64,000 bases of DNA, from assembly GCA_963965975.1 (NCBI GenBank), contig OZ014422.1:2542001-2606000 (forward strand), written 5' to 3'. Under the pieces are notes generated by a model that searched no databases, was not told where the DNA came from, and was given only the letters and a program-made list of their open reading frames with translations. Made by a program: the position numbers and the translations under genes. Positions 1 to 17,795 of this stretch are shown here, piece after piece; positions within the stretch are counted from its first letter, which is position 1, and every line of letters begins with the position of its first letter. The stretch comes from Xestospongia bergquistia. Taxonomy: Eukaryota > Porifera > Demospongiae > Haplosclerida > Petrosiidae.

Positions 1-161
1 CAGGTCTTCCATCACATGTTTTAAGACCTTTCTTAGTTCTTTGTTGAGTAAAACTCAATACAATCCACACAATAACCTAATAAAATATGACTTATACAAT
101 ATATTACAACAGACTTACAGTAACAACAAACAATACAATATATACAGCTGCATCAGCAGCA
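1..161 (-). CDS. STRA6-like retinol-binding-protein receptor, 5' exons only (partial, third paralogue)
   Basis: Two exons on the minus strand belong to a further STRA6-like gene that continues past the left edge. The exon at 119-161 starts after an AG acceptor and ends in GTAAGT. It joins in frame to the exon from 76 leftwards, giving a transmembrane helix (VYIVLFVVTVIVWIVLSF) followed by a basic stretch, TQQRTKKGLKTCDGRP. The second exon aligns with the exons at about 3361-3441 and 9290-9364 of the two other copies. The first exon shares their phase and position but is diverged. An upstream exon with the start codon was not located. The family assignment comes from the paralogues, where the C-terminal motif is visible. 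Confidence 0.55.
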
Positions 162-571
162 CTGCATGTGAGTATATAACATAATTATAATTATAATATA
201 ATATAATAATATTATATTATAATATAGTATATATTGGGACTGTATACAGACTTGACTTGCCTGATATTATTATTATTATTCTCCATTTCAAAGCAACTAA
301 CGCTATAACTAAGATATTTGAGAACGTTACAGCAATTAACAATTCAGCAGCAAATTATAGAAGAAGGTTATGATCTAACCCACAAAAGCACGCACTAAAA
401 GTTAATTAATAATAAAGTTATTAATAATTATTAATAATGCTTATTTTGTCTCGTTATTAAAGAAGGGGGAGCTAAATTAAACCTAAGTGTATGATAATAT
501 TATGTGTATATGAAATAATACAATGTTTTATGTCATTAGTTGATAATAATCAGTGGAGTAGCCAAATTCTG
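162..571. other. AT-rich intergenic stretch
   Basis: This stretch lies upstream of the left-edge STRA6-like gene and beyond the end of the STRA6-like pseudogene. It holds low-complexity AT runs near 180-235 and 400-440. It has no match to the corresponding upstream parts of the other copies. I see no coding exon or RNA gene in it. Confidence 0.5.
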
Positions 572-961
572 GAAATTATCTGTATGCGATTTAAACTGAA
601 GTAAGATTTCTTTTAAAGGATTTAGCAAGTTGAGGATTTTTGATAAGTGTGTATGTAACAAACCAACGATTGTATGCTTTCTGTGAGACACGAGGTCTAC
701 TGGCTGATATAACTAAAGAAGAATAAGAAATTAAATATAACAAGACTATTACATGTACCATCTTTACATGAAATTATCTGTATGCGATTTAAACTGAAGT
801 AAGATTTCTTTTAAAGGATTTAGCAAGTTGAGGATTTTTGATAAGTGTGTATGTAACAAACCAACGATTGTATGCTTTCTGTGAGACACGAGGTCTACTG
901 GCTGATATAACTAAAGAAAAATAAGAAATTAAATATAACAAGACTATTACATGTACCATCA
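572..961 (-). repeat. 198-bp tandem duplication of a STRA6-like terminal exon
   Basis: The block starting at 572 recurs at 770, an offset of 198 bp, with almost no differences. Each unit holds one copy of the STRA6-like C-terminal exon: acceptor, coding part ending NPQLAKSFKRNLTSV, and stop TAA at 591-593 or 789-791. The duplication belongs to the decayed left copy only. The right copy has a single exon. Confidence 0.8.
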
Positions 962-3618
962 TCTAAAGACATTTGTTATGACTTTAGATTACTGGCATTT
1001 TAATAAAATTATCATACATAGTTAATTTTAAATAATTTAAATTAGTAGGCAAAATGGTAGTTTTAAACAATTAGTAAGCAAAATAAGAGTAGGTGAAACC
1101 ATAGGCTGTATAGACTACATGACCATGTAGTCTATATTATTGTCTATGGTGAAACTGAATAGATAAAAAAGTACCAAATCCTTGCTCAAATATGGTGTGA
1201 CCAGACATGGGGCAAGCACTTGAGTGCTTGTGCTTGAAAGCACTTTAAGCACATTTTTTGGAATGCTTGGAGGTGCTTTCAAGCTTTTATTATATATAAG
1301 CATTTATGCTTGTGCTTGTGCTTAAGCACTTTATAGCATTAGTGCTTTAAAGCACTTTATAAGCACTTTTAAGCACAAAGGCTGCAAGTTCTTTATGCAC
1401 TTAGCACATCTATTAATACTCTTTTGCTTTTAGATCTTTAGGCCAGAGAGATGCCGACTGGTAGATACTATATTCTATAACTAATGTTTATACGATCTAA
1501 CAAGAAGTATTTTAAAAGTTGACTTAGATAAAAGAATTGTTTATTTGAAGGACATTTTTTGTCAAAAATGCTTGTGCTTGTGCTTCAAGCATTTTTTAAG
1601 TGCTTGAATTTGTGCTTCAAGCACTTATTTTTTAGAAGCATAAATGCTTGTGCTTGTGCTTAAGCTCTTTTATGAATGCTTTAAGTTGTGCTTCAAGCAC
1701 TTCAGTAAATGCTTGCCCCATGTCTGGGTGTGACTCTGCATGATAAAGTTCAATGATATACAAATATTCTATTTGTGCAGTGAAATGTAGCTTCTTTTCA
1801 ATGCTACCTGGTTTGTTGAATATTTCAGTTAACATGTCCACAAACATATGGACAATAGGATTATGTAACAAAGTTTCTATAAGTATAAAGTTCTTGAATG
1901 TACCGTGACCTATACAATGACATAGATGGCTTTATTGTAAGTGTTATTTGAGACTAGTTCTTACTTGAATCACATTTCTCAAATCCTTTCACATACATCA
2001 GTCGATCCATTCTTGGTAAAATCATGATCATAAATAGAAAAGACAGACCTACACGTATAATAGCAGTCGTTAATCCAGAAGCCATGTTGTAGAGCAATAC
2101 TATATAGGAGAACATATTGAAGGCACGTCTATAATAAAAGAGAATAATTATTTAAATAAAGTACATACAATATATAACTAACCTGTTATCAATAATGACT
2201 GTTTTTAAATCAGCACTATCATTAGATACAAAAAATACTTTACAAATAATTATTTGAATGACAATGATAAGTACAGTCCATCCAATAAGTACTCTATTAA
2301 TTTTTTGAATATAATAAATTATTTTATAATGATATGTTTTCCAACATACACCACTTTATAGTAGTAATATCCAAATACAGATGGGATTATTATAAGACCC
2401 ATGATAGCTATACCAATAACAAAAATCACCACTGTATACACAATCCATGCTGTAATATAAATAGATAATAATTAAAGTTTAAATGTAGTTTATTACTTGT
2501 GATATAAGCGGCAATCTGATAGCCAGTATAGCGAACTGATGATGACTAGTAAGGAGAGAGATAGAAAAGAAAGAAAATCCACAAAATGTTTTTCTTATAG
2601 AACTAACCAATGTTAACACTGGCCATTTAATAGTGGTTGTAGGAGCAAACAGCTCTCCTTTACGAGCTTGGAACTCTTGAATACGAAGCCTATTAATATT
2701 GTCTCTTACTACTTACACACAGAAAAACTCACCTCAGGAAGTAGATAAAGTGTATAAAGAGAACACAACAGAAGACAGTGGCATTTCCATAGCAATCAAC
2801 AAAACCCACTCACAAAACATGAAATAACAATCACTAACATCACACATACATAACATAAACTGATAAGTTTTCTGCATGGGCTGCCTAGTTTGACACACTG
2901 CAACATTAATTAATATCAATAATAAAGGGAAAAGGTCACATAGTGTATTATTCAACAACAAAAACTATGTAATCTTAACTGCATGCTGGGATGTAAGATA
3001 TCATTAGCTCTAATCAATCAAGTGAACTCCTCTCTCACTTCTTCCATAGTAATTCTGTTAATTTTGCTTTACTTTCACTTTATGGTACTATGAATACTAG
3101 AGTGTCTATGATGAAACTACCTCCCTTTATATTTGAAAGATTCAAACTCAACTGGTATGCTCAAACCAATCCTAACTTGTTTATTTTATTCTCAGTCATT
3201 CTTCTACCCAGTTTTTAAACAATATATGAAAATTTAATGTTCTTTTGTAATAGGACTACTTACTATGAATAGATAGAAACTTTTAATTCAGATTTACAAG
3301 AGAAACATGTTTTTTAAGTACAATATATAATTGTATTATACAATTGATAACTCACAAGACAATACCAGGTCTTCCACCACATGTTTTAAGAGCTTTCTTA
3401 GTTCTCTGTTGAGTAAAACTTAATACAATCCAAACAAAAACCTATAAAAGAAACTATTAGTATCAGTCAATGTAGTCCTCATGTCTTACTGTTGTAACAA
3501 GCTGTATTGTTCCAACTGTAATAGTTGCATTATTGTGTTTGAGAGGGGCTTTATAGTAAAACTTGACATTGAATTTATCATACCTGTTAAATTGAATCAA
3601 AGCAGTATTGGTAGCCAT
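591..3618 (-). pseudogene. Decayed STRA6-like receptor gene (left copy of segmental duplication)
   Basis: This copy keeps the first exons (ATG at 3616-3618, MATNTALIQFN; TM exon at about 3361-3441) and the last ones. The last ones include RLRIQEFQARKGELF, SSSVRYTGYQIAAYIT and two further TM exons, then GHGTFKNFILIETLLHNP and the C-terminal exon, present twice. Everything corresponding to 7000-8790 of the intact copy is gone. The deletion cuts an exon near 2770 and splices in a short fragment matching about 9645-9740. It therefore lacks most of the central membrane helices and cannot make a full receptor. Its terminal exon still has the native-looking stop, with the same C-terminal pattern as vertebrate STRA6 (RW-x-TL-x-NPxL...LTS). 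A truncated transcript is possible but no function is claimed. Confidence 0.7.
1201..1727. mobile_element. MITE with terminal inverted repeats and 6-bp target duplication
   Basis: This 527-bp insert is present in the pseudogene copy and absent from the matching place in the other copy (about 5920). It begins CCAGACATGGGGCAAGCA and ends with the inverse, TGCTTGCCCCATGTCTGG. It is flanked on both sides by GTGTGA (1195-1200 and 1728-1733); the empty site reads GTATGA. The interior is full of GCTTGTGCTTAAGCAC-type units in both orientations, so it can fold back on itself. It has no coding capacity. Confidence 0.85.
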
Positions 3619-4104
3619 TAGTAGTGAAATGGACAATGCACAACTGTAGTTTTTGAGGAGTGCCTTATATACTAAGCACCCCCTCGTATAATTATTGGAG
3701 GACGAATGTGAAGTGAGGCCCCTCCCTTCACCAAATTCTAATAACAATTATTTCCATAGCAATCAACAAAACCCACTCACAAAATGTGAAATAACAATTA
3801 CTAACATCACACATACATAACATAAACTGATAAGTTTTAATTTTGAATTGGTTCAGATACATAATTTCAGTCAGATTGAATCTAATGTCTACAGTAGATA
3901 TGAGAATAATGGCCAATGGATCAGATCCAGTGTTACAGTGAGCTATGGGTGCAACAAACTAAGACATAATCTGCTATACAATACAGAGTTCCATTGAAAA
4001 AAAGAGAGAGAGAGAAAAAGAGATTAACAGAGATATAGAAAAAGAAAGAGGGGAGCAGGTAGAAGTGACTATAGAACATTTATAAGTGGAATGTGCTGTG
4101 GCTT

Positions 4105-4375
4105 TCACCAATAGAAGGCTTTGCCCAAAAAGCCTGTCACTGAAGTAAACCATCCACCACCCTCTCCTACCATACCACTCCTTTCTTTTGCCTGAAAAAG
4201 TGAGACAAGAATATAATAGAACACTCAAAAGATTATTCATTTACTCTATCATCATCTAATTTATCCTCATCTTCAAGCAAATATTCAGGTAACTAAAATG
4301 AAATAGATATCAAAGACATTAGCTAGTATGTGACACAACTACTTACTCTGACTGGATGTTTTTCTTTCTCATCTC
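4105..4375 (-). pseudogene. ARMC1 relic, last two exons
   Basis: This copies 10004-10260 of the intact ARMC1 gene. The final exon (stop TCA at 4105-4107 on the plus strand, acceptor near 4195) and the preceding short exon are both recognisable. Near 4375 the match to ARMC1 stops and the sequence continues as the end of MTFR1, with CTCAT shared at the joint. All 5' exons are missing, so this is a fragment left by an internal deletion of the left duplicate. Confidence 0.8.
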
Positions 4376-4483
4376 AGCTCATTTAATGAATTTAATAGCC
4401 CTGGTCCATCAACTAAATTGGTAAATTTACAATCTGTACTATTAATTTTATTTGATATCAAACTCTATTTATAGTTTGACTGA
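4376..4483 (+). pseudogene. MTFR1 relic, last coding exons
   Basis: This matches 13708-13812. It includes the codons SSFNEFNSPGPSTKL, the GTAA donor, the short intron and the final mini-exon TTT GAC TGA (intact copy TTT GAT TGA). The similarity carries on through the non-coding stretch to about 4700, which matches 13813-14036. The upstream exons are absent. Confidence 0.8.
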
Positions 4484-4688
4484 GGACACTCACAAAACAT
4501 CATTTCATAATTCACACATGAAATACAAAAAATCAAAAATAATAAATTATTATTCATATAACTATATGTATTATATGATGTACCATTTGTAGTGTATTTG
4601 CTCTATTGTAAAATGTTAAAAACAAACTAACTATACATAACAATATCTTTACACAAACAACTAAGCAAAATTTAATATATTTCTTTAT

Positions 4689-7600
4689 TCATTTTCTGCA
4701 TTGTTTGTTGTTTTTTAGTTTTGGAGGAGGAAGCAATGGTTTCCGTTTTTGTTCCGTTTGTCCCACATGGGTTTTGATGGGTATTGGTGGTGGTTGTGGG
4801 GTCTGTTCTTTACTTTCATAAATAGATGATCCTGTCTGTTGTGGTTTAGGACCAGGTAGAGGAGGAGGTTGAGGTTTCAATTTAGAGACACCCCTTTGAT
4901 TATGACCTCCAGGAAGGGAGGGAGACTCTGTTGTTTTCCTTGTGTCTTCATTTAAATGTGGACCTTCCCAAGTATGCTTTTGATATGGTGAGACTAACGT
5001 TTGATTATGACCTTCAGGAAGGAAAGGAGACTCTGTTGTTTTCCTTTTCCCTTCATTTAAATGTGGACCTTCCCAACTATGCTTCTGATATGGTGTTTGC
5101 TGACTTAAGTCTTTTTGTGGTTTAGGACCAGGTAGAGGAGGTTGAGATGATTTAAATTTAGAGACATTCCTTTGATTATGATCTTCAGGAAGGGAGGGAG
5201 ACCCTGCTGTTTTCCTTTCGCCTTCATTTAAATGTGGACCTTCCCAATTATGCTTTTGATATGGTGATAACCCTTGATTGTGGCATTCAGCAAGAAATCT
5301 AGAAGGAGGCTGTATTGGTCCCCCTATCTCTTTGGAAGGGGACAAGCTTTTCCAATTTGACTGGTTTGGAGATATTTCTTTAGAATTGTGCGTTGATTTT
5401 TTTTCATGTTTAGATTTTGAAGGAAGAGCTGGCAGAGGTTGTGAAGCTCTTTCTACTTCATCTGTATGTTCTGATGATTCTGATGTATTACTTTTATGGT
5501 CATCTGAATGTGACGTCTTAGTACATACTGAAGTAAGATCATTTCTTTTAAAGGATTTAGTAAGTTGAGGATTTTTGATAAGTGTGTATGTAACAAACCA
5601 ACGATTGTATGCTTTTTGTGAGACATGAGGTCTACTGGCTGATATAACTAAAGAAAAATAAAAAAATGAATATAACAAGACTATTACATGTACCATCATA
5701 TAAAGACATTTGTTATGACTTTATATTACTGGCATTTTAATAAAATTTAATTTTAAATAATTTAAATTAGTAGACAAAATGGTAGTTTTAAACAATTAGT
5801 AAGCAAAATAAGAGTAGGTGAAACCATAGGCTGTATAGACTACATGACCATGTAGTCTATATAGTGTCTATGGTGAAACTGAATAGATAAACGAGTACCA
5901 AATTCTTGCCCAAATATGGTATGACTCTGCATGATAAAGTTCAATGATATACAAATATTCTATTTGTGCAGTGAAATGTAGCTTCTTTTCAATGCTACCT
6001 GGTTTGTTGAATATTTCAGTTAACATGTCCACAAACACATGGACAATAGGATTATGTAACAAAGTTTCTATAAGTATAAAGTTCTTGAATGTACCGTGAC
6101 CTATATAATGACATAGGTGGCTTTATTGTAAGTGTTATTTGAGACTAGTTCTTACTTGAATCACATTTCTCAAATCCTTTCACATACATCAGTCGATCCA
6201 TTCTTGGTAAAATCATGATCATAAATAGGAAAGACAGACCTATACGTATAATAGCAGTTGTTAATCCAGAAGCCATGTTGTAGAGCAATACTATATAGGA
6301 GAACATATTGAAGGCACGTCTATAATAAAAGAGAATAGTTATTTAAATAAAGTACATACAATATATAACTAACCTGTTATCAATAATGACTGTTTTTAAA
6401 TCAGCACTATCATTAGATACAAAAAATACTTTACAAATAATTATTTGAATGACAATGATAAGTACAGTCCATCCAATAAGTACTCTATTAATTTTTTAAT
6501 ATAATAAATTATTCTATAATGATACGTTTTCCAACATACACCACTTTATAGTAGTAATATCCAAATACAGATGGGATTATTATAAGAGCCATGATAGCTA
6601 TACCAATAACAAAAATCACCACTGTATACACAATCCATGCTGTAATATAAATAGATAATAATTAAAGTTTAAATGTAGTTTATTACTTGTGATATAAGCG
6701 GCAATCTGATAGCCAGTGTAGCGAACTGATGATGACTAGTAAGGAGAGGGATAGAAAAGAAAGAAAATCCACAAAATGTCTTATTGCACTAACCAATGTT
6801 AACACTGGCCATTTAGTAGCAGTTGTAGGTCCAAACAGCTCTCCTTTACGAGCTTGGAACTCTTGAATACGAAGCCTATTAAGTTAGAGAATATTGTCTC
6901 TTACTACTTACACACAGTAAAACTCACCTCAGGAAGTAGATAAAATGTATAAAGAGAACACAGCAGAAGACAGTGGCAAAAATAGGAGAGAGAACTGATA
7001 TAGCTAAAAAGATAATCATTAACAATATATTATAATATATTATTTATACCTGTTAGACTTTTAAATAAACGAGGGAGTTTACTAAAGAAAGCATTATCTT
7101 GAAAATCAGAAGATTGTTCAAGTAAAGCTTCAAAAATGTTACCCAATTGATCAAACAAGTATGGAAAGTAAAAACAGACAAAAACAGTGAGCTATTGTGT
7201 ATACATAATAATAATAATAAAGTCATTGAATATTAGAAATTAATTTACTTGAAATATTATGATAGCCACTACTACAGCAACAATTAGAACTGGAAATGGT
7301 AACTTATTTCCTAAGATTAAATGAGGATATAGTTACTAACTAATTTTTTTAAAGTAGTGATAAAAATATCTTTAAAAAAACATGACCTTAATTTTAAGAT
7401 ATCAACATTTTACAAACAAATTCACTTTTTGTTTGTTTTTTGTTATTGATACATCATATATATTGACTATTGACATAAAGACAACAGAAATGTGATACTC
7501 ATGTTAAAGATACATACACTGACATACTAAACTGTAAACAGTTGAATATGTCATGCATTTACTTCCCTAACAAGTTGTTCTATGTACTACAGTACTTACT

Positions 7601-9539
7601 GGTAATGATGTGTTTCTTAAAGAAAGGAGGGTTCCTGTACATAAATAAAATTTATATAGTTTACATAGTGTAATATTATAGATATTCAGGTATTACTAAC
7701 TCTGGTGGTTGTAACAATTGTTTGACATAGTTGATATGATTCATGGAATGAGGTTGTTCTTCCATCTATAAAGAGACCATTATATATCAAGTGTTCTTAT
7801 AATAAAGACTTACAGCCAATTTCCACTGATTACCAGTCTTATAAACTCTTAATAACTGTTTAATCAGTTTATAGTGGTACCAAATAAGTATACCAATAAG
7901 ACAAATAATTTTGGGAAGATTAGATACTACAGTATTGCTGTACTAAAGGAATATCATAAGAACCAAAAGTGTACAGTTGATAGACTTACATAAATTGCTT
8001 TGTAGCTTGAGACTACATTTGAGCCAAATTTCAAATTTTCAGCAAACAAGTAAATACTTAAGACAAAACTGTATATTAAATATAAACAATCTAAGAATCA
8101 TATTAATATAACACTAACTAGATATCACAATAAATGGCTCCCATAATGTATCCCACAAGAGGTATAGGTGCCTCCAGACAAGCCAGGATAGGATATGTTG
8201 AAATAATGACCACAGTCACCAGAAACATTATGACAAAGGCTAAGTCATATAAGGTAAATAACAGCATTATCCAATTACTATTGGTACTTACGACCAATAA
8301 TAGGTGATGCCCATTTGTTAACATTAACTTTTAATGTCATTGTTAACAGTCCAAACCACTCAGAAGCTAGAGCACCACAAGCTAGTACATACACCAGACG
8401 ATGTCTTGGATTCAAGAAGTTGATAGGGCTGGAAGGAAATATAATAAAGAATTTGAAAACTTGAATGTGTCTTTTATGATTTGCAAAAAGGGACCATTTC
8501 TGTAAAAACACTTGTGACCTCATTTGTTAACAAACCACTGTTAAAACATCTCAAACATGTCAGTTTTGTATATATACAGTTGCTATATTATGTATAACTA
8601 TTCTATATGTACAAAAAACTGTTTTTTTGATATGTTTTAACAGCGGTTTGTTTACAAAAAAAATCAGGTCACAAATGTTTTGACAGAAGTGGTCCCTTTT
8701 TGCAAATCAGGTCACATATGCTTAAATATCTGCTGCAGCAAATTTTCAAGCTAATGGATACAAATTATTAAACTAAATTTTGAACAGTGAAGCCAATTTT
8801 CTGCATGGGCTGCCTAGTTTGAGACACTGCAACATTAATTAATATCAATGATAATGGGAAAAGGTCACATAGTGTATTATTCAACAACAAAAACTATGTA
8901 ATCTTAACTGCATGCTGGGATGTAAGATATCATCAGCTCTAATCAATCAAGTGAACTCCTCTCTTACATAGTATATTAATATTAATTCTACTCATTTTGC
9001 TTTATTTTCGCTTTATGGTACTATGAATACAAGAGTATCTAGGACTTTCCTTCTTATTTGAAAGATTCAAACTCAACTGGTATGCTCAAACCAATCCTAA
9101 CTTGTTTATTTTATTCTCAGTCATTCTTCTACCCAGTTTTTAAACAGTATATGAAAACTTAATGCTCTTCTGTAATAGGACCACTTACTATGAATAGATT
9201 GAACTTTTACTTCAGATGTACAAGAGAAAAGTTTTTTAAGTACAATATATATTTGAATTACACAAGTGATAACTCACAAGACAATACCAGGTCTTCCACC
9301 GCATGTTTTAAGAGCTTTCTTAGTTCTCTGTTGAGTAAAACTTAATACAATCCACACAAAAACCTATAAAGAAACTATTAGTATCAGTCAATGTAGTCCT
9401 CGTGTCTTACTGTTGTAACAAGCTGTATTGTTCCAACTGCAATAGTTGCATTACTGTGTTTGAGAGAGGCTTTATAGCAGAACTTGACATTGAATTTATC
9501 ATACCTGTTAAATTGAGTCAAAGCAGTATTGGTAGCCAT
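4689..9539 (-). CDS. STRA6-like retinol-binding-protein receptor fused to a DBB-adaptor-derived proline-rich tail
   Basis: This is a multi-exon polytopic membrane protein. The start at 9537-9539 gives MATNTALTQFNS plus NATIAVGTIQLVTT, then a helix and TQQRTKKALKTCGGRPGIV. Later exons, from about 8430 to 5900, read PINFLNPRHRLVYVLACG, FLVTVVIISTYPILACLEAP, LPKIICLIGILIWYHYKLIK, LPFPVLIVAVVVAIIIFQ, SVRYTGYQIAAYIT and GHGTFKNFILIETLLHNP. The penultimate region and the NRWFVTYTLIKNPQL...LTS exon match the C-terminal pattern of vertebrate STRA6 (YRNFLRIE, RW-AYTLLHNP). The family imports retinol from plasma RBP or related ligands across the plasma membrane. Unlike the pseudogene copy, the last exon has no stop after LTS. 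It reads through 5530 into about 280 residues copied from the neighbouring adaptor: repeated PYQKHSWEGPHLNEG units, LPALPSKSK and PPLPGPKPQ motifs. The stop is at 4689-4691. Splicing is inferred. Family certainty is good, ligand unknown. Confidence 0.7.
8463..8720. mobile_element. Foldback MITE-like element in an intron of the STRA6-like gene
   Basis: The two halves are inverted copies of about 105-110 bp. The left half contains GATTTGCAAAAAGGGACCA, TTGTGACCT, AACAAACCACTGTTAAAACA. The right half has the reverse complement with modest divergence. The spacer is AT-rich (about 8575-8620). No open frame spans it and no clear target duplication was found. It sits between the first TM exon (9290-9364) and the PINFLN exon. 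Confidence 0.7.
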
Positions 9540-12536: not shown

Positions 12537-13812
12537 ATGATGTCACAAGTATTGCATCATAGACCAATGGTATGTTAATGTACTGTAAATATAACAATTC
12601 CGGATTGATTTTATCTAGGTATATGGATCCAATCGTAGTGTAGTACGTATGATTGCAACCAGACTACCTATTGATACTGGACAACGAGTGTACATACAAG
12701 TATGTTAACACCTTTTATAACCTTCTATGACAACAAGTGATAATATTTCACTTGTTAGTTACCTCATGGGACGGGGTCACATCCTTCATCTCCTCTTAAT
12801 TCTATGGGAGGGATTTTAGATCTGACGTCAGAGGACGGAACCCTGGCTACATTGATAAGGGATCCAGGATTAGTATTCAGTAAGGTGACACAACGATTTC
12901 GTTTGGGGCCTATTGTCGAGGAACAAGTGGAAGAAAATGAACACAAGAGTGAAGGTGGAAAAGTTAAAGGTAAGTAAGAGAGGAAAAAAATGTTATGATG
13001 ATTTTAACTTTCATAGAGGCTACACAAGAGAGAATTGTATCATTAGAAGCAGAGCTAGCTCGACTGAAATCTCAAATAGCTCAATATACTTTAACTCAAA
13101 TGGAAGACAATGAAGGTACACATATTTTAACCCTTTCATCTCTATGCTATGGACAATGTACAGTTCTTCTTCCACCCCCTCCTCCCCCTCCTCCTCCTCC
13201 TCCCCCTCCACTCCCTCAATCCACATCTGTAAGTCACAGTGATTTTACTACACACTATTATTAATGAATTGTTTTAATTTAGGCAGAATTAGTTGGGGCT
13301 ACTTCATCAATTGATTCCCCTGCTGCACCAAGTACAAGTACACCTTATCAATCAAACATGTCCAATGTTCTTCAACAAATCGGGAGTGTCAAGTTGAGAA
13401 CATTAGACATGGAAAAGTAAGGGAAAAAAACTTTAATATTGTTGTCATTATCTCTCTGTGTAGGTCTCCAGGTGGTACTCCACTACGTCCTAAAGTACAC
13501 AGACAACAAGAGCCTTCTATGGAGGACCCTGCTGCCGTTATTGCTCATGCACTAAGAAAGAAATTCTCTCATAAAATATTTCAAGATTCACCAGGTCTGT
13601 TCTCTATTATGTTTGTAGTGTATTAATTGACATTTATGATGATGATATGAGATGATAATCAATACTTCGTTCTTCAGACAAAGAAAATCTCGATCGTTCA
13701 GAGAGCTCATTTAATGAATTTAATAGCCCTGGTCCATCAACTAAATTGGTAAGTTTACAATGTGTACTATTAATTTTATTGATATCAAACTCTATTTTTA
13801 TAGTTTGATTGA
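12537..13812 (+). CDS. MTFR1: Mitochondrial fission regulator 1-like protein
   Basis: Eight coding exons: 12537-12569, 12619-12699, 12759-12969, 13017-13115, 13164-13228, 13283-13416, 13464-13594, 13678-13748, plus a mini-exon 13804-13812 (F, D, stop). The N-terminal block YGSNRSVVRMIATRLPID matches the family signature (G-x-x-RSVVRRIGTNLPL). Further on are the helical SLEAELARLKSQIAQ, a run of 13 prolines then LPQ, NVLQQIGSVKLRTLDMEKSP, and EDPAAVIAHALRKKFSHK. The last two are the conserved C-terminal motifs of MTFR1/MTFR2/MTFR1L. Family members sit on the mitochondrial outer membrane and promote fragmentation; the proline run could bind EVH1 or SH3 partners. Which vertebrate paralogue is closest cannot be decided; it may predate their split. 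A decayed copy of the 3' end is at 4376-4483. Confidence 0.88.
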
Positions 13813-14009
13813 TGACAATCACAAAACATCATTTCATAATACACACATCAAGTATAAAAATCAAAAACAATTCAAATAATAAATTATTATTCATATAACG
13901 TTATGTATTATATAATGTACCATTTGTAGTGAATTTGCTCTATTGCAAAATGTTAACACCTAACTAACTAACTATACATAATATCTTTACACAAACAACT
14001 AAGCAATAT

Positions 14010-17000
14010 TTAATATATTTCTTTATTCATTTTCTGTATTAGCAAGCCTACTTTAGTTCCTGAAGATTGTTTAGTTGGTACATTATCAGACTGACTTACA
14101 GGTACCTGTTTTTGCCATCTATGCAGTAGAGGACTTTCTGGTAAGGGTCCTGTTTTTGTTGGTACATGTGGAGGTTTTTTAGAGGTCGGTGGTGTGAGTG
14201 GTTTCTTAGGTTGTGTTAATTCTTGAGTAGGACTTGAAGGAGGAGTATGTGCTGTATATAGCTGTTGAGATGTGTTGTATTGTTTCTTCTCATTAGGCAA
14301 TGATAATTTTGGACGGAGTGAAGGTTGTTGGAAAGACACTGGAGTTGGGTTGATGGGTAATGTTCTCCCTGGTATTCGAACATTTGCTATATCATCATAA
14401 GTTTCTTCTATATCTATGGGAGTAGTAGTAGAAGTAAATGTTAAATATTCATCAATATCATCATCACTATTAGAGTCTACATCTTGTGGAGGTACTTTAG
14501 GTTTTTCTGAAACTGGCAGTGGAGGACTGCATTGTTTGCTGTTTTTTAGTTTGGGAGGAGGAAGCAACGGTTTCCGTTTTTGTTCCGTTTGTCCCACATG
14601 GGTTTTGATGGGTATTGGTGGTGGTTGTGGGGTCTGTTCTTTACTTTCATAAATAGATGATTCTGTCTGTTGTGGTTTAGGACCAGGTAGAGGAGGAGGT
14701 TGAGGTTTCGATTTAGAGACACCCCTTTGATTATGACCTCCGGGAAGGGAGGGAGACTCTGTTGTTTTCCTTGTGTCTTCATTTAAATGTGGACCTTCCC
14801 AACTATGCTTTTGATATGGTGAGACTAACGTTTGATTATGACCTTCAGGAAGGGAAGGAGACTCCGCTGTTTTCCTTTTCCCTTCATTTAAATGTGGACC
14901 TTCCCAACTATGCTTCTGATATGGTGTTTGCTGACTTAAGTCTTTTTGTGGTTTAGGACCTGGTAGAGGAGGTTGAGATGATTTAAATTTAGAGACATTC
15001 CTTTGAGCTTCAGGAAGGGAAGGAGACTCTGCTGTCTTTCTTGTGCTATCATTTAAATGTGGACCTCCCCAACTATGCTTTTGATATGGTGAGGCTACCA
15101 TTTGATTATGAGCTTCAGGAAGGGAGGGAGACTCTGCTGTTTTCCTTGTGCCTTCATTTAAATGTGGACCTTCCCAAGTATGCCTTTGATACGGTGAGGC
15201 TACCGTTTGATTATGACCTCCGGGAAGTGTGGGAGACTCTGCTGTTTTCCTTTTCACTTCATTTAAATGTGGACCTTCCCAACTATGCTTCTGATATGGT
15301 GTTTGCTGACTTAAGTCTTTTTGCGGTTTAGGACCAGGTAGAGGAGGTTGAGATGATTTAAATTTAGAGACATTCCTTTGATTATGACTACTAGGAGAAG
15401 AGGGAGACTCTGTTGTTTTCCTTGTGCCTTCATTTAAATGTTGACCTTCCCAACTATGCTTTTGATACGGTAATAACCCTTGATTGTGTGCTGACTTGTT
15501 TTCATGTTTAGACTTTGAAGGAAGAGCTGGCAGAGGTCGTGGAGCTCTTTCTACTTCATCTGTATGTTCTGATGATTCTGATGTATTACTTTTACGGTCT
15601 CTAGGACTATGGTCAAGTGTTGGTGATTGCTGCTGATTGTGACCTTCAGGATGGGGAAGAGCCTGTGACCTTGCATATAAAACAGAATTCTCCACTTTTG
15701 ATTGTAGTTGTGAAAAATCATGACGACTGTATGTCACTGGAGTTGGTACTGGCTCAAACTTTTCTAACTTTTCTAACTGGTTTTTATCTGCTTGTTTTGG
15801 CATTAAAACAGGTTTTGAAGTACTCTCCATTTTTCTGTCTGTAACTGTAGAAAGTGTTCCTGATGTATTCTCATTACGTTTTGGAGGAAGAGGAGGTGGT
15901 TGTTCCTTGTAATAATGTGAAGTTCCAATAGCAGATTCAACACTACATGATCTGGTGAGAAAACCTAACTGCTTCTTTGCCTGTAAGATTCAATATACAT
16001 GAACATATATAAAAAGCTAAAAACCTCAAGTGTAGCTTGTCTGTCTTTAGCCGTTGCATCTTTAGATAACTCAACGTACTCCAAATCTTCGTAATCATGG
16101 TCAACCTGTTAATGTGATATACTACAAACGATAACTAACTAAAGAGATACCTCGTCATCAGATGTAATTTCCATTGATATTTCCTTAGCAATGATTGGCT
16201 AAGAAAAGAATTAGAAAAAATAAACTATTCTGTAAATTGATCTGCATCTACCTGTGACAGAGGTTGAACAATTCTTAATGGAAATTCACAATATTTGTCG
16301 TGGGCAATTCCTTTGCATATGCCATAATCATTTATACGGGTCACAAAAATAACATCACCAACCTACCAAAAGAAACAACAATAACGTGACACTTTATATG
16401 GATTAAGTTTACCTTCAAGTATACATCTCCACTCATCTGAGTATGGCAGATATATTCTGTGACTACTGTAGCTGAATACAGCGCTGTTTTTTTCAAATGC
16501 TCAAGAAAAATAGTGTCACCATATTCGTTAGACTGTAGAAAAATGAGACTAATAATACAATATTCATTTAGTATAAACATACTTCTTCAGTGGTTTTGCG
16601 AACTGCACGATCTGAAATGAAAGTAGTTAGTTTTAGTTCCAACTTTGCTCTTTAAAGTTAACTAACCTGCAAAACTCTTTATGCTATGAACAAATTTTTG
16701 TTTTATCTTCTTTTTCTTTTTAGTTTCAGAGCCAGTGGAATCAGAAGCTTTAGAAAATATATTCAAACAATGTATAGTAATAATATTGTTGTGTGTGTTG
16801 TTACTTACATTCACTGAATACTGCGTCCTGTGTTTTTAAAAAGAGAATTTAGTGTTTTCTAAAGTCAGTGTTCACATACCTTCAATTGCTCTTCAATTTT
16901 GTTAGCAATGCTAACTAAATTTAGTTGTCTAGCTATGTCGATAGGTGTGGCACCATCATAACTCTTTGAAATAAGCACTTGTTTAGAATTGCTTACAATC

Positions 17001-17795
17001 CCTGGATTTGAAAGCCAATTACTTGTCATAATTAGATTATGTCGAAGTGTAAAGTGTAAAAGATGATCATTAACATAATTGCCTAAGAGAACAAAGGATA
17101 ATATCGTCCATATATCATCTGTTCAATGATCTTAACATACCACATAACAACAATGGCAGTTTCTTTAGAGGATCCTCAACTTTTTGAATTGTGTTATGAA
17201 AAATTTCATCAATGAGGTCAGGATTCTCATGCTTGCCTTGCTGTTCTAGTTGAATAAGATAAGCCAAAAGAACTGACATGATTCCATTTTGTGACATCTT
17301 TCCTGATGTCAGAATACTCTGTATTGCTTCAATTTGAGAGGCAACTCTTATTTGAAATGGTGGGAAATTTGGGTTCTCAACATGTTCAAATTTTATATTT
17401 ACTGTATAGATACCACTTTGTCTGAAAACTGTATAGGAAAAAGTAGTTAATTGTTATTCTGTATGGGAGTTACAAACCGGGAAAAAAGGCTTTAATAGTT
17501 TTTGGTCCTAATTGACTGACTAATATTTTGTCACAGATCTTGGCATTCCAAGCATTTGAGAAAGTCAGTGTAACAATTCTAATTTGTTTTGGTAGGTCTT
17601 TATCAAACTCTAACACAACCTCTTGTTGCTCCTAGAAGATGCATTAGATGTAGTCAATAAAAATGATGACTTGACTGGCTGACTTCTTAACTGTAAGGAA
17701 CACATGATATATATACTTACCCCAACAAAAATGAAGGAAGGAGTTAAATGAGGCATACCTATATGAGGATTCTCACTTCGAAGATGATGTGACAT
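14010..17795 (-). CDS. DBB-domain signalling adaptor (BCAP/BANK1/Dof-like) with proline-rich repeats
   Basis: From the start at 17793-17795 the exons encode a TIG-like domain (MPHLTPSFIFVG, VVLEFDKDLPKQIRIVTLTF, FRQSGIYTVNIKFEH). A helical stretch follows (GIMSVLLAYLIQLEQQGKHE, DPLKKLPLLLC). Then come ankyrin-like units (NDHLLHFTLRHNLIMTSNWL, DGATPIDIARQLNLVSIANK). That order is the Dof/BCAP/BANK (DBB) module. After it come a basic linker, acidic tyrosine motifs (DYEDLEYVEL) and one large last exon. The last exon holds six to seven PYQKHSWEGPHLNEG-type repeats, many PPLPGPKP and PPPIP motifs, and DEYLTF and YDDIANV near the end. BCAP and BANK link receptors to PI3K and Src kinases; Dof serves FGF receptors. 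An N-terminal TIR domain was not seen. It is divergent from the coiled-coil gene, with 129 bp between starts. An extra 5' exon cannot be excluded. Confidence 0.62.
14700..15470 (-). repeat. Coding tandem repeats of about 105 bp (33-35 residues)
   Basis: In the last exon of the DBB adaptor a unit resembling PYQKHSWEGPHLNEGxRKT followed by ESPSLPEGHNQ recurs six to seven times. It is interrupted three times by a second unit, NVSKFKSSQPPLPGPKPQKD or a shorter variant. Copies differ by a few bases, so the array is young or homogenised. Three units were carried into the chimeric STRA6-like exon at 4689-5500. Confidence 0.85.

Follow-up and report, generated by a model that had tools for sequence, protein, structure and literature searches.

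A STRA6-type receptor gene of the sponge Xestospongia bergquistia with a tail derived from a neighbouring adaptor-like gene: a putative chimera formed by tandem duplication

A tandem array of STRA6-like receptor genes in the sponge Xestospongia bergquistia ends in a gene whose last exon runs, in one open frame, from receptor sequence into sequence matching the last exon of a neighbouring adaptor-like gene. We describe here this chimeric gene, its broken sister copy and the gene from which its tail derives, within a window of 64,000 nucleotides (assembly GCA_963965975.1, contig OZ014422.1, called C12 below; the window is C12:2542001-2606000, and positions without a contig name are counted from its first base). 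Genome searches covered 146 Mb in 21 contigs. The chimeric gene lies on the minus strand, from an ATG at 9539 to a TGA at 4689-4691 that overlaps an AATAAA motif, and in our hand-built model it comprises 18 exons and 875 codons; all 17 introns are bounded by GT and AG and are consistent in phase, and 14 of them measure 46-66 bp. Introns this short are not odd for a sponge, since the ribosomal-protein introns of Amphimedon have a median of 68 bp (PMC3412847). Exons 1-9 lie at 9539-9411, 9363-9278, 8428-8292, 8239-8119, 8068-7990, 7942-7814, 7765-7701, 7634-7600 and 7310-7249, and exons 10-17 at 7191-7050, 7003-6928, 6875-6794, 6735-6687, 6639-6540, 6484-6374, 6319-6156 and 6100-5999; with the receptor-derived start of exon 18 (5647-5527) they make up the receptor part of the gene (5527-9539), which rests on the splice model, on the family and structure matches given below and on matching exons in the paralogs. 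The frame of exon 18 stays open from its acceptor at 5647 to the TGA. A preliminary description of this DNA had given the same two gene ends, which are exact in the splice model, and the same unbroken frame through the tail; it had placed the end of the penultimate exon near 6050, which the model moves to 5999. A frameshift suspected near 6500 was found to fall inside a 55-bp intron and was discarded. Intron 2, of 849 bp, holds a palindromic element at 8477-8709, with an inverted match of 79% over 241 columns.

The receptor part belongs to the STRA6-like family, as first described. Residues 38-589 of the predicted protein match the Pfam family RBP_receptor (PF14752) with 173 bits against a cut-off of 25, covering positions 15-603 of a profile of 605, and residues 43-564 match the STRA6 structure 5sy1 of the PDB with an expectation value (E) of 3.1e-12. 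The hydropathy profile offers ten candidate membrane segments within residues 32-505, two of them overlapping, and none in the tail, which predicts a multi-pass membrane protein without fixing its exact topology. The same family has at least ten matches in the genome at E up to 0.001, one on contig C10 and nine on C12, two of the latter being the copies in the window itself. Those on C12 form a tandem array (C12:2503294-2551539) of at least seven STRA6-like genes followed by the broken sister and the chimera, and positions 1-9539 of the window are its right end. A search of the seven upstream paralogs for exons 2-17 recovered 74 of 112 exons at a relative score of at least 0.6, and 69 of these 74 have the length of the corresponding chimera exon; the search demanded AG, GT, phase and a length within 15 bases, so the agreement in phase was imposed rather than found. 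The other 38 fell below 0.6, seven of them, in the last gene, having been captured by the sister copy; exons 8, 12 and 17 scored low in nearly all genes, others in single genes, and exon 1 was recovered in none of the seven.

These paralogs share the exon layout of the chimera and differ from it at the C-terminus. All nine other last exons examined in the array (those of the seven genes and two copies in the sister) end 6-17 residues past the motif KNPxLxK, and the chimera continues for 288. The distant family member on C10 (C10:100073-100735) also has a long tail, of 108 residues past RNPQLQQ by our own count, which by eye looks unrelated to that of the chimera. From this gene, and from STRA6 and RBPR2 (below), a long tail is already known in the family, and the fusion would give one short-tailed member of the array a new, unrelated one; the array may once have carried such a tail and shed it.

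The joint itself lies at about 5502-5527, where the preliminary description had put it. The receptor homology of the copy at 5527-9539 stops at 5527, just before the position of the stop codon in the sister, and the adaptor homology begins at 5501, where 117 bp match 15483-15599 with 8 mismatches, and continues with breaks to 4696-4702. Between them lie 25 bp of in-frame filler on the minus strand (5502-5526). With 3 mismatches allowed, these bases match nothing else in the 64-kb window, and with 2 allowed their core of 22 bp occurs only once in the genome. By eye, a few of the bases next to 5501 recur 15 bases further on in the parent, so that the filler proper may be a little shorter. The adaptor-derived tail (4692-5501, minus strand) amounts to about 270 proline-rich codons with three PYQKHxWEG repeats. 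Together with the filler it gives 278 residues, among them 41 prolines and four tyrosines, with 11 PxxP motifs; no YxxM motif, strongly hydrophobic stretch or predicted membrane segment was found in it. Because the two alternative frames of the fragment meet stops at once or by codon 17, the chimera has taken the adaptor's own frame.

Against the last exon of the parent gene the tail gives a match at E 3.9e-109, which is not a chance result and bears out the earlier claim that an in-frame tail was copied from a neighbour's last exon with loss of the normal stop. In the genome search the tail protein matched only its own locus and that exon; among bacterial and archaeal genome contigs, 20 stretches fitted the search pattern and none was confirmed as a relative. 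The earlier mention of many substitutions against the parent has to be corrected, as 585 cleanly aligned bases hold 19, and the larger differences are in-frame changes of length. Some 125 codons of repeat are present in the parent only and absent from the tail, and about 36 of the roughly 270 tail codons have no counterpart in the parent's last exon. The latter lie at 5282-5384 with the residues HN on both flanks; they may have dropped out of the parent, without a shift of frame, once the duplication had occurred. At its 3' end the tail lacks about 486 bp that the parent has, through a deletion with a shared CAG, and the frame ends two codons later. This deletion brings the adaptor's AATAAA beside the new stop, the same motif being found at the 3' end of the adaptor gene itself, at 14027.

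The parent is an intact gene on the minus strand (14010-17795), with 12 exons and 1059 codons in a hand-built model; the tail comes from its last exon (15980-14010), where the copied stretch lies at 14527-15599. The eight genome matches of its N-terminal 403 residues all fall on its own locus. The middle of the protein gives weak SH3-like matches to PDB entries (E 0.88-1.5), and the same piece had no SH3 match in Pfam, where three unrelated matches below the cut-off appeared; the weak matches and the proline-rich end suggest an adaptor. The narrower labels given to it in the preliminary description, of a DBB adaptor of the PI3K type, are not borne out. The N-terminal part had no DBB match in Pfam, either with 521 residues at E up to 1 or with 241 residues at E up to 10, although HMMER filters discard most matches above about 0.1; the DBB model PF14545, run against the genome exon by exon, found no match and was equally silent in its controls, and so gives no proof of absence. 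YxxM, which we take to be the mark of PI3K-type adaptors, was sought in the modelled parent and chimera and found in neither. The PYQKHSWEG block of the parent (14527-15488) holds six units and the tail three, a sign that the number of repeats changes quickly.

One tandem duplication, spanning some 10 kb between 5527 and about 15599 and followed by deletions in the left copy, would produce the layout seen around these genes. In plus-strand order the left copy consists of the receptor 3' end with its own flank, the receptor 5' end, remnants of the intervening sequence and the adaptor fragment; the right copy consists of the receptor at 5527-9539, the intervening genes and the complete adaptor gene. 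Receptor and adaptor genes lie on the same strand, so that the receptor of the right copy continues into the adaptor fragment of the left one; that it does so in frame was one lucky chance in three. The junction and both of its flanks are as expected for a chimeric gene made by such a duplication, and the earlier proposal of a tandem-duplication junction agrees with the receptor stop and flank kept on the left, the full adaptor gene on the right and the filler between. Part of the left copy survives at 4376-4702 as a remnant of 13704-14040, the sequence beside the adaptor 3' end, with 89% identity over 341 bp.

The left sister receptor (591-3618, minus strand) keeps exons 1, 2 and 12-17 and two copies of its last exon, and has lost exons 3-10 and part of exon 11. 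It carries the stop that the preliminary description had reported, a TAA on the minus strand at 591-593, and its second last-exon copy stops at 789-791. Because this normal-tailed sister is the broken one, the chimera, with all of its 18 exons, is the intact copy, which agrees with its earlier designation as the survivor. The two copies of the sister's last exon (572-762 and 770-960) form a tandem duplication of 191 bp at 99.5% identity, with separate stops. The phases of its exons 1, 2 and 12-18 fit together, giving an open frame of 314 codons, from which a shortened receptor could be made. The last intron of the left copy holds, at 1225-1700, a stretch rich in AAGCACTT-like words that has no counterpart in the chimera's intron.

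On the DNA, a real chimeric reading frame is very likely, and we put at roughly 55% the probability that it is a protein-coding chimera born of tandem duplication, that is, an expressed STRA6-type receptor with an adaptor-derived tail. The proposed duplication of about 10 kb would have cut two last exons, that of the receptor just 5' of its stop and that of the adaptor-like gene nearby. The receptor's own promoter would then drive the chimera, splicing into exon 18 would be unchanged, translation would run through the 25-bp filler into the adaptor frame, and the adaptor's AATAAA would serve to end the message. The predicted product is a STRA6-type protein with 288 residues past KNPxLxK in place of about 10, the addition being a proline-rich and probably disordered tail that carries repeats. 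If the topology of vertebrate STRA6 is shared, whose C-terminus is cytosolic (PMC12953553), this tail would be cytosolic too and could scaffold or compete. The receptor core may keep its ancestral ligand or uptake role, while the tail might tether SH3-type or other partners of the parent to the membrane, or compete with the parent for them; a new signalling receptor is possible.

The strongest competing explanation, which we regard as a serious one although it is not the one we favour, is that the fusion is real and perhaps transcribed, and young and neutral, the tail being passive read-through and selection keeping the receptor part alone. In two clean blocks of 195 codons, with 8 synonymous and 11 nonsynonymous changes between tail and parent, the ratio of nonsynonymous to synonymous substitution rates (dN/dS) is 0.39, with a bootstrap interval of 0.17-1.08 and a binomial p of 0.053. 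The preliminary description had called for this comparison, and its outcome is divided: the point estimate lies below 1 and speaks against neutrality, and the interval includes 1. Neither the filler nor the 36-codon stretch enters these values, nor does the first repeat unit, for which two partners come into question (it differs by 17-22% from either, with gaps against one). A first alignment of 278 codons (dN/dS 0.58, 0.41-0.83) mixed repeat units that do not correspond and was replaced by the two blocks. The receptor compared with its sister likewise has 8 synonymous and 11 nonsynonymous changes, in 269 codons (a count that omits partial exon 11 and the last exon), with dN/dS 0.39 and a synonymous divergence (dS) of 0.046. 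As pairwise values, none of these assigns constraint to one branch. Taken together, they suggest constraint on the tail and do not prove it.

Several observations weigh against a maintained tail. The dN/dS interval and p value reach the neutral range in blocks that were picked for clean alignment and that mix constraint on the parent with constraint on the tail. The deletion that shortened the end of the tail, compared with the parent, looks as much like decay as like trimming, and at E up to 1 neither the tail nor the last exon of the parent matches a Pfam family. The argument that the frame has stayed open is weak as evidence, true as its premise is: with 10 substitutions a simulated tail kept clear of stops in 0.60 of runs, with 15 in 0.45 and with 20 in 0.36, and the remaining exons of the sister, which show 24 differences over an alignment of 992 bases (partial exon 11 supplying 51), have no stops or frameshifts either. 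Since the exons of even the broken copy are open, openness fits a young unselected duplicate, and we rejected it as proof of function. As a neutral control the sister has its own flaw, since a short protein could come from its joined frame of 314 codons. Counts of insertions and deletions (indels) point the other way: the 585 clean tail bases contain none, a 1-bp end gap having come from the block edges, and four mostly noncoding blocks of the same duplication, 1500 bases in all, contain 19, of which 13 are not multiples of three; this test too was rejected as proof, as the tail blocks were picked for clean alignment and the sister exons are nearly free of indels, with one 3-bp change of length besides exon 11. 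Better evidence than the open frame, though indirect, is that the copy with the normal tail was the one that broke and the chimera the one that stayed whole.

An inactive locus, in which the whole chimeric gene is a pseudogene that looks intact through recent duplication, is improbable. The sister dS is low enough for it and exon loss has already struck the partner copy, but in the hand-built model the chimera has every one of its 18 exons and all its splice sites in order, and its dN/dS against the seven paralogs is 0.32-0.48; the eight exons shared with the sister also speak against it, small as the numbers are, since of their 19 differences the chimera accounts for 4 (3 synonymous and 1 nonsynonymous) and the sister for 2, the other 13 being unassigned. 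A misjoin of two haplotypes or copies at about 5500 is very improbable, for although assemblers are generally known to place allelic copies in tandem, the copies here differ by 1-7.5% in the compared blocks and have private deletions, the two exons joined are not homologous and meet across 25 unique bases, unlike what an overlap join should produce, and the region is already a tandem array of the same gene on a contig of 6,995,158 bases.

If the receptor with an adaptor-derived tail is the right reading, a further step may be imagined, which we offer as speculative and rather doubtful: a short-tailed STRA6-like array would have regained a long tail in one step by capturing a neighbour's multivalent proline-rich scaffold, and the chimera would then have displaced its normal-tailed sister, wiring a retinoid-type receptor to new cytosolic partners. 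The source gene, the target gene, both breakpoints, the broken sister and the short-tailed paralogs all lie within about 60 kb, so that the step from a short-tailed to a scaffold-tailed receptor is directly testable here, where such wiring is usually inferred long afterwards. The occurrence of STRA6-like genes as a tandem family in a compact genome also raises the question of their ligands there. A literature search for STRA6 in sponges returned, among the matches listed, none that by title concerned sponge animals.

Two known systems may be compared with this locus. Vertebrate STRA6 resembles the chimera in its core, which matches the family over nearly its full length, and in that its cytosolic C-terminal tail bears a signalling site and is there the signalling part (PMC12953553; a cytosolic, signalling C-terminus is also described in PMC11050646). 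It differs in the size and origin of this part: the inner C-terminal domain of STRA6 and RBPR2 has 74-75 residues (PMC11050646), against about 280 in the chimera, taken from another gene. The motifs differ as well, the tail of STRA6 carrying a YxxL/V site (PMC12953553) and that of the chimera PYQKHxWEG and PxxP, with no YxxM. The second comparison is with the chimeric genes left by tandem duplications in Drosophila, of which 76 are reported in D. yakuba (PMC5460883). There, as here, same-strand genes were broken inside and the 5' part of one joined to the 3' part of the other. The Drosophila chimeras are polymorphic in the sample, whereas the parts of the sponge gene differ by 2-7% from their sources; and unlike those chimeras, the sponge fusion falls within one exon and joins a predicted multi-pass receptor to an adaptor-like tail.

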